A DNA stretch of 64,000 nt from Faecalibacter rhinopitheci (GTDB lineage Bacteria > Bacteroidota > Bacteroidia > Flavobacteriales > Weeksellaceae), in assembly GCF_015234135.1 (NCBI RefSeq), contig NZ_JADGIK010000002.1, positions 186,001-250,000 of the forward strand, read 5' to 3'. This document shows positions 55,685 to 60,578 of the stretch, one piece after another. The notes beneath the pieces are model-generated. The model was not told where the DNA came from and did no database searches. It saw nothing but the letters and a program-made list of their open reading frames with translations. Numbering within the stretch: position 1 is the first letter of the stretch; every line of letters starts with the position of its first letter. A program made the position numbers and the translations under genes.

Positions 55685-56532
55685 AAAATTTTATCCCTAG
55701 AGCAATCTCCGGAATAATCTACGCTCTTATTATTTTCCTAGGAAGTACAATTCATCCTTATGGACTTATTGCACTTATGGCTATTTTTGCCTCATTAAGT
55801 TTATATGAGTTTATAAAAATGACTCATCTAAAAGACAAATTATACTTGGTAGGAAGTATTGTAGCTTCTGCTATTCTATTTATATTATTTGGTAAAGAAT
55901 TTTTAACAATTTTTTTAAATGGTAAAGATCATTTTGAGTTCTTTTTAAATTCTAAAGCATTTATACCTCCAGTTTTATTTATAATATCAATTATAACTAT
56001 TTTCTTTTCTACTAGAGAATTATTAAATGATTTTTCTAAAGCTACTATTGCTGTCGTATATGTTATAATGCCATTTGTGCTAGCATTTACTCTTCCTACC
56101 TTTTCGTATGAGTTAGGTGAATATAAAATGTTCAAAGAATTATTATTTATATTTATTCTATTATGGACAAGTGATTCGTTCGCATATATAGCAGGAAATT
56201 TATTTGGAAAACATAAATTCGCTCCAAAAATTTCTGGAGCTAAAACTTGGGAAGGATTTGCAGGAGGTTTGATTTTTACCATATTAGCAGGTTTTATTAT
56301 TGAGAAATATTTTGATAGTAATGCTATCGTAGATTGGTCAATTATAGGTATAATCGTGGCTCTATTAGGTCCTATCGGAGACTTAACTGAATCTAAATTA
56401 AAGAGATTTTTTCAAATAAAAGACAGTGGAACATTAATTCCAGGTCATGGCGGTTTTTTAGATAGATTAGATAGTTTTATATTTGTCGTTCCATTTATCT
56501 ATTTATATTATTTATTAGTATACACTTTATGA
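55681..56532 (+). CDS. cdsA: Phosphatidate cytidylyltransferase (CDP-diglyceride synthase)
   Basis: Makes CDP-diacylglycerol from phosphatidic acid and CTP. It has 283 residues and about eight membrane segments. The cytidylyltransferase region is clear: SDSFAYIAGNLFGKHKFAPKISGAKTWEG and the signature GPIGDLTESKLKRFFQIKDSG followed by PGHGGFLDRLDS. It overlaps the genes on both sides by 4 bases. Confidence 0.97.
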   Translation: MKNFIPRAISGIIYALIIFLGSTIHPYGLIALMAIFASLSLYEFIKMTHLKDKLYLVGSIVASAILFILFGKEFLTIFLNGKDHFEFFLNSKAFIPPVLFIISIITIFFSTRELLNDFSKATIAVVYVIMPFVLAFTLPTFSYELGEYKMFKELLFIFILLWTSDSFAYIAGNLFGKHKFAPKISGAKTWEGFAGGLIFTILAGFIIEKYFDSNAIVDWSIIGIIVALLGPIGDLTESKLKRFFQIKDSGTLIPGHGGFLDRLDSFIFVVPFIYLYYLLVYTL

Positions 56533-57179
56533 AGCTTCACAGAGAAGGTACATCCATATTAATTGGATGCTTGGTATTATTTACTATTATAACTGTTGCG
56601 TTGGCACATTATATGCCTACCTATGGTATAGTATTAGCTTTACCCTTTTGGATCCTATTTGGATTTATAATTTGGTTTTTTAGAAACCCTATCAGAGAAA
56701 CTGATTCTTCTGATAATTGTATTATTGCTCCAGTTGATGGAAAAGTTGTCGTTTTAGAAGAAGTATATGAATCTGAATTTCTGAAGGAAAAATGTATTCA
56801 GTTATCGATTTTCATGACGCCTTTAAATGTGCACGTCACTCGATATCCGGTAAATGGAAAAGTAATTTTTTCTAAATATCATCCAGGAAAATTTTTGGTT
56901 GCATTTCATCCAAAATCATCAGAGTTAAATGAGCGTACCACTGTAGTAGTTGAAACTCCAGATCAGACAAAAGTATTGTTTCGTCAGATTGCAGGAGCTG
57001 TAGCTCGACGTATTGTAAATTATGCAAAAGATAATGATGATGCTATTGCTGGTAAAGAGTATGGATTTATTAAATTCGGATCAAGAGTTGATATATTCTT
57101 ACCATTAGATACAAAAATTGATGTAAAAATTGGTGATATCACAAAAGGTGGTATTCAAAAAATTGGCGAGTTAAAATAA
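56529..57179 (+). CDS. psd: Phosphatidylserine decarboxylase (short type)
   Basis: Decarboxylates phosphatidylserine to phosphatidylethanolamine. This is the 216-residue short form with two N-terminal membrane segments (about 10-28 and 32-50). The pyruvoyl-forming self-cleavage site is GS in KFGSRVDIF (Gly184-Ser185), and the FMTPLNVHVTRYPVNG motif is present. It overlaps cdsA by 4 bases, so CDP-DAG production and PE formation are co-expressed; a phosphatidylserine synthase gene is not in the window. Confidence 0.96.
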   Translation: MKLHREGTSILIGCLVLFTIITVALAHYMPTYGIVLALPFWILFGFIIWFFRNPIRETDSSDNCIIAPVDGKVVVLEEVYESEFLKEKCIQLSIFMTPLNVHVTRYPVNGKVIFSKYHPGKFLVAFHPKSSELNERTTVVVETPDQTKVLFRQIAGAVARRIVNYAKDNDDAIAGKEYGFIKFGSRVDIFLPLDTKIDVKIGDITKGGIQKIGELK

Positions 57180-57260: not shown

Positions 57261-57500
57261 ATGAAAAAATTAGGATTATTAGCTGCTGTAGCTTTTTTAG
57301 CAGTTTCTTGTAACACGAAACCAGGTGGAAACCACGGAGTTTTACCTGTTGAACATGAAGCATACACTGCAGATGATTTACACCACGAGGGTGGACACGG
57401 AGAAGATCATGCTAAACATGCTGAAGAAGTGCAAGCTGATACAATCTCTACAACTGAAAAAGTTGAAGAAGTAAACGATACAATTAAAGCTGGAAATTAA
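57261..57500 (+). CDS. Small histidine-rich lipoprotein
   Basis: A 79-residue predicted lipoprotein: signal peptide with lipobox AVSC (Cys17), then a short mature chain rich in His and acidic residues. Eight histidines lie in about 32 residues, in the pattern NHG, EHE, LHHEGGHGEDHAKH. Such clusters often bind nickel, zinc or copper, but no motif of a defined family is seen. The tail is Glu/Asp/Thr rich. The end of the frame forms part of the terminator hairpin. Confidence 0.75.
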   Translation: MKKLGLLAAVAFLAVSCNTKPGGNHGVLPVEHEAYTADDLHHEGGHGEDHAKHAEEVQADTISTTEKVEEVNDTIKAGN

Positions 57501-57516
57501 TCCAGCTTTTTTTTTA
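57486..57516 (+). terminator. Terminator overlapping the His-rich lipoprotein stop codon
   Basis: AAAGCTGGA/TCCAGCTTT stem; the loop AATTAA contains the stop codon. A T-run follows. Confidence 0.85.
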
Positions 57517-57519
57517 TTT

Positions 57520-58143
57520 TTATATTATCTCCAATTTATTTTTATACTGAGCTTTGTATTTATTTAGAGAAGTAACTGTAGGCGATACTAAAATAACTTT
57601 TTTACTATTTAAAGCTAAAGGTAAATCATCTATGGAATCTGTGTAAAACTCTTCTACCAATTCACCGCTTAATAAATATTTTTCTTTTAAAAGATTTAAA
57701 TATTTTTCTTCTTTATAGTTATTAGAAAATTTGCCATTGCTAACAGACGCTCCTATCACTATAATTTCATTATTAAACGTTGGGAATATTTTTTTTATAC
57801 AAGGTTTTAAATACTTTTCAGGTGCTGCAGAAGATATTATAATCATATGGTGATTTTGATATTCTTTAACCAATAAATCATAAACTTTTTGATTCACAAA
57901 ATATTTTATAATCCTCGCAAAAGTTTTATAATAACTATCTGATAGTTTAATTTCCAGTATTTCTCTTTTAAATTCATCATGAGAAATACGTTTGCTAATC
58001 TTTCTTTGAATCAAAAGAATCAAAAGATTATATCTAAACTCAAATTTTAACATAGAAAAAACAAGTACAAATAAAATCCATAACGGAAATGTATTTATAC
58101 GTACTAATGTTTTATCAAAATCAAATACTATTTTCTTAACCAT
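57520..58143 (-). CDS. HAD-superfamily phosphatase
   Basis: A 207-residue HAD-IB-like phosphatase. Motif I is FDFDKTL (nucleophile Asp8, Asp10), motif II is IIISSAAPEKY (Ser104), a lysine in NNYKEEKY may be motif III, and motif IV is YTDSIDDLPLAL (Asp169, Asp172/173). The cap region (about 18-50) is unusually hydrophobic, which could let it lie on the membrane. It overlaps the PRTase gene by 8 bases. In PRPP-dependent ribofuranosylation a HAD phosphatase removes the 5-phosphate after ribose-5-phosphate is transferred; that role is my inference from the neighbours. Confidence 0.85.
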   Translation of the reverse strand: MVKKIVFDFDKTLVRINTFPLWILFVLVFSMLKFEFRYNLLILLIQRKISKRISHDEFKREILEIKLSDSYYKTFARIIKYFVNQKVYDLLVKEYQNHHMIIISSAAPEKYLKPCIKKIFPTFNNEIIVIGASVSNGKFSNNYKEEKYLNLLKEKYLLSGELVEEFYTDSIDDLPLALNSKKVILVSPTVTSLNKYKAQYKNKLEII

Positions 58144-58720
58144 CTAAAGACCAAGGAAAGCGAATTAAAACATTTTTATATAAAAAATAGTCTGGCATCA
58201 TCATGGTATTCTCATTAGTTACTACAACTGCTAATGATTCTACAGCTACTGATTCATGCTTTTTAGTTCCTATATAATCAGATACTTTTTTTAATGTTAA
58301 ACCAGAATCTACTGCGTCATCAATAATCAAAATTTTATCATATTTGTTATAATCAATCTCATTTTCTACTATAATATGACGTGCAGTATCTAAATTGCTA
58401 TTTGTTAAAATTTTAAATTCCATTACACGTAAAATATCTAAAACTGATAAAGGAAGAATCTTAAAGAAATTTTGAATAAGATATTTTAAAAATTTTTTAT
58501 TTTTCTTAGCATATGTAGATGGTCGTTGGCATGTTATAAAATTTAACTCAATTTGATTTTTCGAATTATATTTCAAAAAATCATACACATTTATTGCTAA
58601 AGGGGAACCACCTTCTTTAATTCCTAGTATAAGAAGTTTTATTGAATCATTATTCAATTCTTTTAATGATTCTGCTAAAAAATCATTAAAAGCATTTTGT
58701 TCAAAATTTATTACCTTCAT
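58136..58720 (-). CDS. Phosphoribosyltransferase-fold protein
   Basis: A 194-residue type I PRTase. The PRPP-binding loop is KILIIDDAVDSGLTL (129-143), with the two adjacent acidic residues typical of the family, and GIKEGGSPLA (33-42) resembles the pyrophosphate loop. The C-terminal PDYFLYKNVLIRFPWSLDG is also PRTase-like. It is not one of the usual purine or pyrimidine salvage enzymes by my reading: there is a basic helical insert (about 66-100). Placement between a glycosyltransferase and a HAD phosphatase favours transfer of ribose-5-phosphate to a glycan acceptor. Confidence 0.8.
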   Translation of the reverse strand: MKVINFEQNAFNDFLAESLKELNNDSIKLLILGIKEGGSPLAINVYDFLKYNSKNQIELNFITCQRPSTYAKKNKKFLKYLIQNFFKILPLSVLDILRVMEFKILTNSNLDTARHIIVENEIDYNKYDKILIIDDAVDSGLTLKKVSDYIGTKKHESVAVESLAVVVTNENTMMMPDYFLYKNVLIRFPWSLDG

Positions 58721-58724
58721 ATTA

Positions 58725-59930
58725 CTATACTATTTTATTAAACAACCAATAATCATATTGTTTAACAACTTCCTCTTCCTTTAAAATTAATAAATTAGAA
58801 ACTCGCTCTAAATATAGCGAATAAGACTTATTGTTTGTTAATAATTGGTGTAAATAATTAATATCAATCGAATTATTATTAAATACTATATCTTCATATC
58901 CACTTCCTTTAACACCTTCATTATTTGATATTATAAGATTTCGATAATCTAAAGCTTCAATTAATTTAGTTTTAACTCCACTTCCATTAGATGAAAAGTT
59001 AAGAAAGAATTTGGAAGATACATATAATTCGTGTAATTCCGCTTTACTAACATTGAATTTAAATTGAATGTTATAGTGTAAGGAGAATATTTGTTTAATA
59101 ATTTCTTGCCTTTCTACCGATGTACATTTACCTGCTATTGTAATATTATAATGCATTAAATCATGGTCTAGTATAAATGTATTTATCTTGTGTATAGCAC
59201 GAAGATTATCATCTAAATCTAAATTTCCTACGTAAAAAAAGTCGATTTTTTTATGTACATTTTCCTTTAAGCTTTTAGATTTATAAAAAATAGGCAATAA
59301 AATATTCTTGGAATTTTGATAAGTTAATTTCTCCAGATTGATTTTATCTTCAGTTGAAATATATAAAAATCCTTCGTAAAATTTATTATTCAAAATTTTC
59401 TTTTGATATTTATTATACTTTAAACTTTCTGACCAGAAGAATATTTTTTTAGGTGATGAACTTGATTTATACATATTATAATAATATTCAGCTTCATCAT
59501 TATGTAACCTCAACCAAAATGGTGGTTTATCGCTTCCTTTATTTATAATATTTGCTAATAATTCTAAATTTTTAGTTGATTTTAAATGTTCAATTAAAAC
59601 CAATGAATATTTTTCAGTTTTTAGAAACTCAATATTATTATAATTAATTGCTCTAACATTTACTGAAAAGGGAATTGAACTAATGAATTTATATATCTTT
59701 AAAATTGAAACACTAATTAGTTCTATATAATAATTACAAATTATTGTTTGATTGCTTTTAATAAATTCCTCAAAATACTTTTTCCTATTTTGATCAAAAC
59801 AGGTACAAATTATGTCTACTTTAATATTATTGTTTTTATAATAGGCGAATTTTCTTTCGATATCCACTACACCACCGTAATTGGAAGGATAAGGCGTATC
59901 AAAACAAACTATAAGGATTTTATTAACCAT
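58725..59930 (-). CDS. GT4-like glycosyltransferase
   Basis: A 401-residue GT-B glycosyltransferase. The N-terminal domain begins KILIVCFDTPYPSNYGGVVDI (donor/acceptor cleft loop); the C-terminal domain has FFYVGNLDLDDNLRAI and the signature GSGVKTKLIEALDYRNLIISNNEGVKGSGYE, as in GT4 enzymes. Donor and acceptor are unknown. It follows recR by 33 bases without an intervening terminator and precedes the PRTase gene by 4 bases, so the four genes are probably one transcript. The trio is visibly more AT-rich than recR, which may mean a different origin. Confidence 0.88.
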   Translation of the reverse strand: MVNKILIVCFDTPYPSNYGGVVDIERKFAYYKNNNIKVDIICTCFDQNRKKYFEEFIKSNQTIICNYYIELISVSILKIYKFISSIPFSVNVRAINYNNIEFLKTEKYSLVLIEHLKSTKNLELLANIINKGSDKPPFWLRLHNDEAEYYYNMYKSSSSPKKIFFWSESLKYNKYQKKILNNKFYEGFLYISTEDKINLEKLTYQNSKNILLPIFYKSKSLKENVHKKIDFFYVGNLDLDDNLRAIHKINTFILDHDLMHYNITIAGKCTSVERQEIIKQIFSLHYNIQFKFNVSKAELHELYVSSKFFLNFSSNGSGVKTKLIEALDYRNLIISNNEGVKGSGYEDIVFNNNSIDINYLHQLLTNNKSYSLYLERVSNLLILKEEEVVKQYDYWLFNKIV

Positions 59931-59963: not shown

Positions 59964-60578
59964 TTAAAATTTTTGATCTGAATAAGGCACACGATATTGT
60001 ATAGACCGTACCAAAGTAGCTTCATCGGCATATTCTAACTCGTCTCCTACTCCTAGTCCTCTAGCAATAGTAGAAAATTCAATATTATACTCTTTTAACT
60101 GTCTGAATAGATAAAACACGGTAGTATCTCCTTCCATTGTAGAACTTAGGGCAAAAATAATCTCTTTAATCTCGTCATTTTTAGCGCGTTGTACTAAACT
60201 TGAAACATTAAGTTGAGTTGGTCCAACACCTTCCATGGGCGATATCTTCCCTCCTAAAACGTGATATGTTCCTTTAAATTGCCCAGTATTTTCAATTGCC
60301 ATTACATCTCTTACATCTTCTACTACACAAACCAATGTTTGATCGCGTAATGGATTACTACAAATTTCGCAGATGTCTAAATCTGAAATTGTATGACATT
60401 TTTTACAAAATTTTACATCTTCTACTAACTTAGATAATGCTTCTGATAGCGCAGCTGTCTGAGATTTTGGACGATTTAACATATGAAGAACGAGACGCAA
60501 AGCAGTTCTTTTTCCTATCCCAGGTAAATTCGCCATTTCTTCCACTGCACGCTCCAATATTTTACTCGGATAATTCAT
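59964..60578 (-). CDS. recR: Recombination mediator RecR
   Basis: With RecO and RecF it loads RecA on gapped DNA. It has 204 residues: N-terminal helix-hairpin-helix ([17 protein letters not shown], about 18-34), C4 zinc finger CKKC...CEIC (about 58-73) and the Toprim domain ([17 protein letters not shown] onward). First gene of a probable transcript continuing into the glycan trio. Confidence 0.97.

Follow-up and report, generated by a model that had tools for sequence, protein, structure and literature searches.

What do a phosphoribosyltransferase (PRTase) gene and an overlapping HAD phosphatase gene do directly behind recR in Faecalibacter rhinopitheci? The two genes lie in a 64,000-nucleotide stretch of contig NZ_JADGIK010000002.1 (positions 186,001 to 250,000; hereafter the window, whose own numbering is used throughout). 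The PRTase (58136..58720, minus strand, 194 residues) is a type I enzyme with HPRT/Gpt-like features, and its end overlaps the start of the gene for an HAD-IB phosphatase with a helical cap (57520..58143, minus strand, 207 residues). A GT4-like (GT-B) glycosyltransferase (GT) of 401 residues precedes them (58725..59930, minus strand). The original prediction described three tightly packed genes behind recR, with an 8-base overlap and a 4-base gap, and proposed that they form a ribofuranosylation module. The open reading frame (ORF) coordinates match that description, placing the overlap at 58136..58143 (minus strand) and the gap at 58721–58724. Our analysis, built on sequences and on analogy with known systems, narrows the proposal to the PRTase and the HAD protein. 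Together they are predicted to constitute a two-enzyme, cytoplasmic ribofuranosyltransferase that draws on phosphoribosyl pyrophosphate (PRPP) and serves a surface glycan, a function that we regard as probable.

We infer the substrate, acceptor, linkage, order and location of this reaction as follows. The PRTase, a proposed glycan phosphoribosyltransferase, would bind Mg-PRPP via its PRPP loop and move ribose-5-phosphate onto a sugar hydroxyl, creating an O-glycosidic bond that is probably β because α-PRPP would be inverted. The HAD protein, a proposed phosphoribose 5-phosphatase, would then strip the 5-phosphate to leave a ribofuranosyl residue, thereby making ribosylation irreversible. The lack of a clear membrane segment in both proteins makes a cytoplasmic location probable, with ribosylation taking place before export. 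The acceptor would be a growing surface glycan. The strongest evidence on this point is the exchange of the pair with a family 2 glycosyltransferase (GT2) gene at one chromosomal site, together with its occurrence in an exopolysaccharide cluster on a plasmid of Hyphomicrobiales bacterium UR115. That glycan could be the lipooligosaccharide core, an O-chain or a capsule, and lipooligosaccharide as the acceptor is a guess.

Two paired enzymes

Both proteins carry the features first ascribed to them. The PRTase scores above the PF00156 cut-off (33.9 bits; cut-off 26.3), contains an intact PRPP loop (KILIIDDAVDSGLTL) and is predicted by structure modeling to adopt the type I PRTase fold. The HAD protein passes PF12710 (37.1 bits; cut-off 27) and is likewise predicted to have the HAD fold; its motifs D8xD10xT12, S/T105, K147, and D169...D173 are retained in 13 of 13 sequences. 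The PRTase resembles the 6-oxopurine PRTases (HPRT, Gpt, and the archaeal proteins 1vdm and 4z1o) in its type I fold, PRPP loop and C-terminal FPW motif, the last of which 1vdm and 4z1o carry at the corresponding position. It differs from them in the modeled helices between residues 67 and 112, in the HAD partner, and at position 166. This position aligns with the purine-binding Lys of HPRT, which in HPRT and Gpt contacts the purine O6, and is Val or Thr in all 14 PRTases. The acidic residues D134-D135 are contiguous in the same 14 sequences. That the RFPWSLD terminus and the DDAVDSG loop are invariant partly reflects how the sequences were collected, because the PRTases of loci L050–L054 and L104 were found with patterns including such motifs; the seven same-genus PRTases and that of UR115 were found by BLAST.

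An extra purine salvage enzyme that merely sits beside an HAD nucleotidase would explain why, among NCBIfam models, the PRTase scores best against TIGR01203 (HGPRTase), at 32.6 bits. The genome's own Hpt, however, scores 167.7 bits against that model (cut-off 150), and a complete salvage set is present elsewhere in the genome, which already encodes Hpt, Apt, Xpt, Upp, PyrEF, PurF, and Prs. Moreover, the base-binding Lys is absent, and a separate clade supported at UFBoot 98 unites the 14 PRTases, leaving out the seven PRTases that the genome has of its own as well as six ComF-like proteins. The PRTase therefore does not group with the salvage enzymes, and we consider a salvage function very improbable. 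ComF identity was rejected on the same phylogenetic grounds and because the NCBIfam comF model matches the PRPP-loop end only (14.8 bits, vs 75–100 bits for eight ComF-like controls); the comF cut-off of 233.55 is undecisive alone, as all eight controls fall below it.

Weak similarity to defense proteins raises a further alternative, in which the PRTase acts in anti-phage immunity or regulation as a retron-type PRTase effector, a PsyrT-like protein or a PRTase-CE protein. PADLOC matches PsyrT in the window (20.3 bits) and ShosT in L051 (19.2 bits), and PF24390 is matched at 14.8 bits. These matches are weak (the PF24390 cut-off is 27) and center on the half of the PRTase that contains the PRPP loop; the PADLOC scan of the HAD and GT proteins gave no match, and the partner is an HAD protein in every locus where it can be judged. 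A role in defense thus appears highly unlikely.

The pairing itself is conserved. An HAD gene directly follows and overlaps the PRTase gene in all 13 loci with downstream sequence, which are drawn from Weeksellaceae, Bacteroidales metagenome-assembled genomes (MAGs) and the alphaproteobacterial plasmid; L051 and L052 among them are close relatives. The overlap measures 8 nucleotides in six of the seven same-genus loci and 11 in the seventh, likely reflecting translational coupling. Chance ORFs are excluded because both frames are kept in six more same-genus genomes and in Moheibacter. By comparison, 12 control loci taken from weaker PRTase-profile matches contain no HAD-profile match in their 2.2–3.4 kb. 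Eight of these are ComF-like by family scan and one by its loop only; the others are a distant relative (L038), an unclear case (L087) and a methylmalonyl-CoA mutase. Across eight genomes the distances of PRTase and HAD correlate with r = 0.91, and their correlations with the flanks are 0.49 and 0.37. Both proteins show distances above those of the flanks in every genome pair, by 1.5 to 12-fold for the PRTase. Fast divergence and exchange are typical of surface-glycan genes.

The exchange slot behind recR

The original prediction regarded the locus as an unusual, isolated minimal setting. Its isolation is not accidental; in the slot behind recR, the PRTase and HAD pair is exchanged with a GT2 gene. 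Among 14 same-genus genomes, seven carry the pair and seven carry the GT2 gene, which encodes ~356 residues and lies between recR and the small lipoprotein gene and psd (PF00535 was confirmed in the three proteins scanned). In six of the seven, no more than 2 bases separate the GT2 start from the recR stop; in L029, the longest GT2 frame overlaps recR. A GT2 orthologue (60–100% identity) is found in exactly the seven genomes that have no PRTase; other matches reach at most 38%. The same swap is seen within the Moheibacter group, with recR-GT4-PRTase-HAD at the same site in L050 and GT2 (51% identity) in its congener L068. In Chishuiella (G012; L011 and L035), recR lies ~70 kb from the pair on the same contig and the psd side is intact, so that one breakpoint of this rearrangement falls within the slot.

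GT2-like genes (24–51% identical to the GT2 of G003) stand behind recR in 10 of the 16 loci read from other genera (L068–L083), which suggests that GT2 was the earlier occupant. When five flanking proteins of 15 genomes are used for a tree, several inner nodes of which are weak (support 39–69), the slot state changes four times by parsimony; 1000 bootstrap trees give three changes in 120 cases, four in 875 and five in 5. This patchiness is not significant relative to shuffled labels, because a fraction of 0.216 of 2000 shuffles produced no more than the observed four changes. We picture a Weeksellaceae "sugar slot" that would alternate between the pair and GT2, so that species would differ in the sugar added.

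The GT gene is best viewed as accessory, with PRTase and HAD as the unit, because GT4 is missing from four of the seven same-genus loci. It is present in the other three and in Moheibacter; in three loci other than the window, its relatives are 51–55% identical. A conserved GT-PRTase-HAD trio, part of the first proposal, was accordingly rejected. Overall, a GT directly precedes the PRTase in 6 of 14 loci, GT4 in four of them and GT2 in two, the latter being closely related Bacteroidales MAGs with the order GT2-PRTase-HAD. Such a GT may add a sugar before or after the ribose. The window GT falls below the cut-off of all group-1/GT4 Pfam models (best 19.7 vs 27), with weak matches to PF13692 and PF00534, but its Moheibacter relative (53% identity by BLAST, 51% in the alignment) passes PF00534 (42.4 bits; cut-off 26.4). 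The original prediction is thus supported in part: the ribofuranosylation idea withstands two of the conditions set to refute it, grouping with salvage enzymes and absence of conserved linkage, the second of them for the PRTase and HAD pair and not for the trio.

The slot is bordered upstream by recR (59964..60578, minus strand), with the slot genes directly behind it in the same direction. A small His/Glu-rich lipoprotein-like ORF, read from the sequence (57261..57500, plus strand), forms the downstream border, followed by the conserved flank psd (phosphatidylserine decarboxylase; 56529..57179, plus strand; PF02666, 138.7 bits), which adjoins the slot in all 14 same-genus genomes. The GT, PRTase and HAD genes have the lowest G+C among the 48 window ORFs of at least 150 residues (23.1, 23.6, and 24.4% in ascending order; mean 30.4%). 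The claim that they lie away from any large polysaccharide cluster was checked in part: the nearest PF00534 match on the contig is ~20 kb off, beyond the window, which is itself annotated partially.

Several observations concern the surroundings of the slot. The slot border holds a likely terminator (57486–57509), in which a T run comes after a perfect inverted repeat of 8 bases (AAAGCTGG/CCAGCTTT); it is located between the HAD gene and the lipoprotein ORF. His/Glu-rich ORFs (MKK... with Cys) recur at the psd end in both slot types, judged by eye on unaligned sequences; similar small ORFs are found at the border in the seven GT2 genomes (L028–L034), L050 and L068. In G004 (L013, 5325–6863), the gene for the SSF transporter next to recR appears as two ORFs, in contrast to the single 507-residue ORF of the window. 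In two loci of another family, the gene behind recR appears to encode a Wza-type polysaccharide export lipoprotein (L070, 2187–2978; L076, 619–1410); the recR neighborhood may attract glycan genes more widely. Elsewhere in the window, seven tRNA-Val genes (anticodon tac) are arranged head-to-tail at 1106–1884 with a period of ~117 bases (ARAGORN and Rfam agree), an unusual number for one isoacceptor.

Relatives in other genomes and on a plasmid

In a search of 40 related genomes, the PRTase was found in 7 of 14 same-genus genomes and in none of the 26 others. Across 320 genomes of the family, 16 contain a match: the same seven, Moheibacter (G309), the distant G047 and seven with weak matches. 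Five of the weak matches were scanned and are ComF-like, L040 is ComF-like by its loop only and L044 is a methylmalonyl-CoA mutase. The G047 match (L038/L103) was excluded for its different C-terminus on a 3.5-kb contig. The PRTase concerned (L038, 1447–2049) is only distantly related within the superfamily, ends in PWS and may have another acceptor; the gene beside it reads as encoding a PHP-like protein. The class search (395 genomes, 12-row profile) returned the source genome and four further matches, with only the former strong; three of the extras are ComF-like (83–94 bits) and L087 matches comF partly (28 bits). The order and phylum searches (395 genomes each, 7-row profile) returned the source genome only, and a wide distribution was rejected. 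No PRTase of this kind was found in phage records.

A peptide-pattern scan of genome contigs matched 78 stretches and gave nine loci, four of them from Porphyromonadaceae/Bacteroidales MAGs and one each from Faecalibacter macacae, Empedobacter tilapiae, Chishuiella changwenlii, E. brevis and Moheibacter sediminis. The scan would miss loci without IRFPWSLD and the PRPP loop because both are in the patterns used. In one of the MAGs, a short-chain dehydrogenase gene stands directly before PRTase-HAD (L054, 5011–5871); its product could be an epimerase that converts ribose to another pentose. In a second MAG, an unannotated gene takes this position.

Outside Bacteroidota, tblastn against 72,556 plasmid records gave one match, on the 802-kb plasmid of UR115 (27.7% identical across 99% of the query). 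Here a 451-residue protein with ~10 hydrophobic segments ends where the PRTase begins, and the gene order is membrane protein, PRTase, overlapping HAD and polysaccharide pyruvyltransferase. The neighbors include a PF13440 flippase-type gene, Wzz, a Bac_transf priming transferase, a UDP-sugar dehydrogenase, a GT4 gene, and an ORF combining an acyltransferase with GT4; the pair sits in an exopolysaccharide cluster. A related arrangement is found in a viral-contig entry (L104, one relative among 12 stretches), with an epimerase, a membrane protein 63% identical to that of UR115, and a PRTase. The latter is at the contig end, where the HAD gene is not judgeable, and the entry is therefore outside the count of 13 loci. 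The two membrane proteins (9–10 hydrophobic segments) have no Pfam or NCBIfam match, and that of UR115 has no sequence match in the PDB; we read both as Wzy-like, with GT-C as a further possibility.

These surroundings bear on whether the acceptor is a glycan at all. BtrL and BtrP, a separate PRTase and phosphatase, ribosylate an aminocyclitol glycoside in two steps in the ribostamycin/butirosin pathway. The pair described here is likewise split into two proteins, although BtrL/BtrP serve an antibiotic rather than a surface glycan. No paper on BtrL was found in the literature searched, which left out most subscription journals. By the same two-step chemistry, our pair could convert a non-glycan metabolite to its riboside or a base to a nucleoside; the fold is nearest to purine PRTases among the 50 structural matches listed, and the surroundings of L053 and L054 are not glycan-like. 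Nevertheless, the purine-binding Lys is lost, no biosynthetic genes stand beside the pair in the Weeksellaceae loci, and neither the exchange with GT2 at one site nor the UR115 exopolysaccharide cluster fits such a role, which makes a small-molecule substrate rather improbable.

Relation to known ribosylation systems

By analogy, the pair may work like the two-domain PRPP-dependent ribofuranosyltransferases (gPRT+PRP). These include Haemophilus influenzae Bcs3 with CriT/CrpP (PMC10299916), Campylobacter jejuni Cj1432 (PMC12096443), and Klebsiella pneumoniae O4 ORF5 and O7 ORF7 (PMC11231755). The common elements are a PRTase-fold transferase, an HAD phosphatase, a GT in the same locus or protein and PRPP as the proposed donor. 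In contrast to the one large polypeptide of those systems, our enzymes are separate short proteins of 194 and 207 residues, with an HPRT-class sequence and a location behind recR in Bacteroidota. CriT has a split acidic pair, D680/E818, from different loops (PMC10299916), whereas all 14 PRTases keep a contiguous DD in the PRPP loop. On this basis we do not place the pair in the CriT lineage.

A second point of reference is the three-component pentofuranose pathway of C. youngae ORF15 (HAD + UbiA PPPRS), in which PRPP is the donor and HAD dephosphorylation follows (PMC11127046). The HAD-UbiA architecture has been shown to dephosphorylate lipid-linked ribose-5-phosphate (PMC11127046), and hhalign matches our HAD profile to the HAD portion of such fusions (98.2). 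The pair could accordingly make a lipid-linked donor: the PRTase would put ribose-5-phosphate on undecaprenyl phosphate, the HAD protein would generate undecaprenyl-phosphate ribofuranose, and a GT-C enzyme would use it outside the membrane. Several of the HAD proteins have a hydrophobic first cap helix (maximum 19-residue hydropathy up to 1.85), and UR115 offers both the possible GT-C directly before the PRTase, as does L104, and a flippase-type gene. The known pathway differs, however, in relying on a UbiA membrane transferase that acts on polyprenyl phosphate and in requiring a flippase and a GT-C (PMC11127046). The PRTase here is soluble and HPRT-like, within PF00156; no such membrane protein lies beside the Weeksellaceae pair (neighbors scanned in part), and the alternative tenant is GT2. 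We therefore judge a lipid-linked donor unlikely.

Several points weigh against ribosylation of a surface glycan. The clear polysaccharide-cluster context is limited to one plasmid and one contig end, whose shared membrane protein has no family match. Four same-genus loci have no GT adjoining the pair, and for two of the four Bacteroidales loci the neighboring gene has no clear glycan role (the short-chain dehydrogenase in L054 and a protein without a Pfam match in L053). The family is rare in the class, order and phylum searches. At the protein level, the structural matches of the PRTase model, among the 50 listed, are of the purine-salvage HPRT/PyrR class, and the C-terminal stretch 171–194, with RFPWSLD, is modeled at pLDDT <50. 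Neither Bcs3 (8A0C/8A0M) nor T. composti 7SHG is among the 60 of 82 matches listed for the PRTase profile or among the six matches of the HAD profile; their absence from the 50 structural matches listed for either model says nothing either way. The likeness to HAD-UbiA is a weak point because HAD-IB similarity is widespread, and the window HAD has no NF006088 match at E ≤ 1 (the search with this model gave 15 loci, seven of which passed the motif and strand filter into the HAD comparison).

In the literature searched, we found no description of the PRTase and HAD pair and nothing on ribose in Empedobacter lipopolysaccharide. We see about an even chance that the pair represents a separate ribofuranosylation lineage, in which an HPRT-like PRTase was recruited independently of CriT/gPRT and joined by a stand-alone HAD protein. 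Its cassette would have spread among Bacteroidota and Alphaproteobacteria and would trade places with GT2 behind recR, changing the surface sugar between sister species. If this is true, the base-salvage type of PRTase fold has been turned into an O-glycosyltransferase at least twice, and the RFPWSLD end, combined with a HAD gene that overlaps, would give both groups a simple marker of glycans that contain ribose. The exchange of GT2 with PRTase and HAD behind recR would then provide a natural experiment on surface sugar change.

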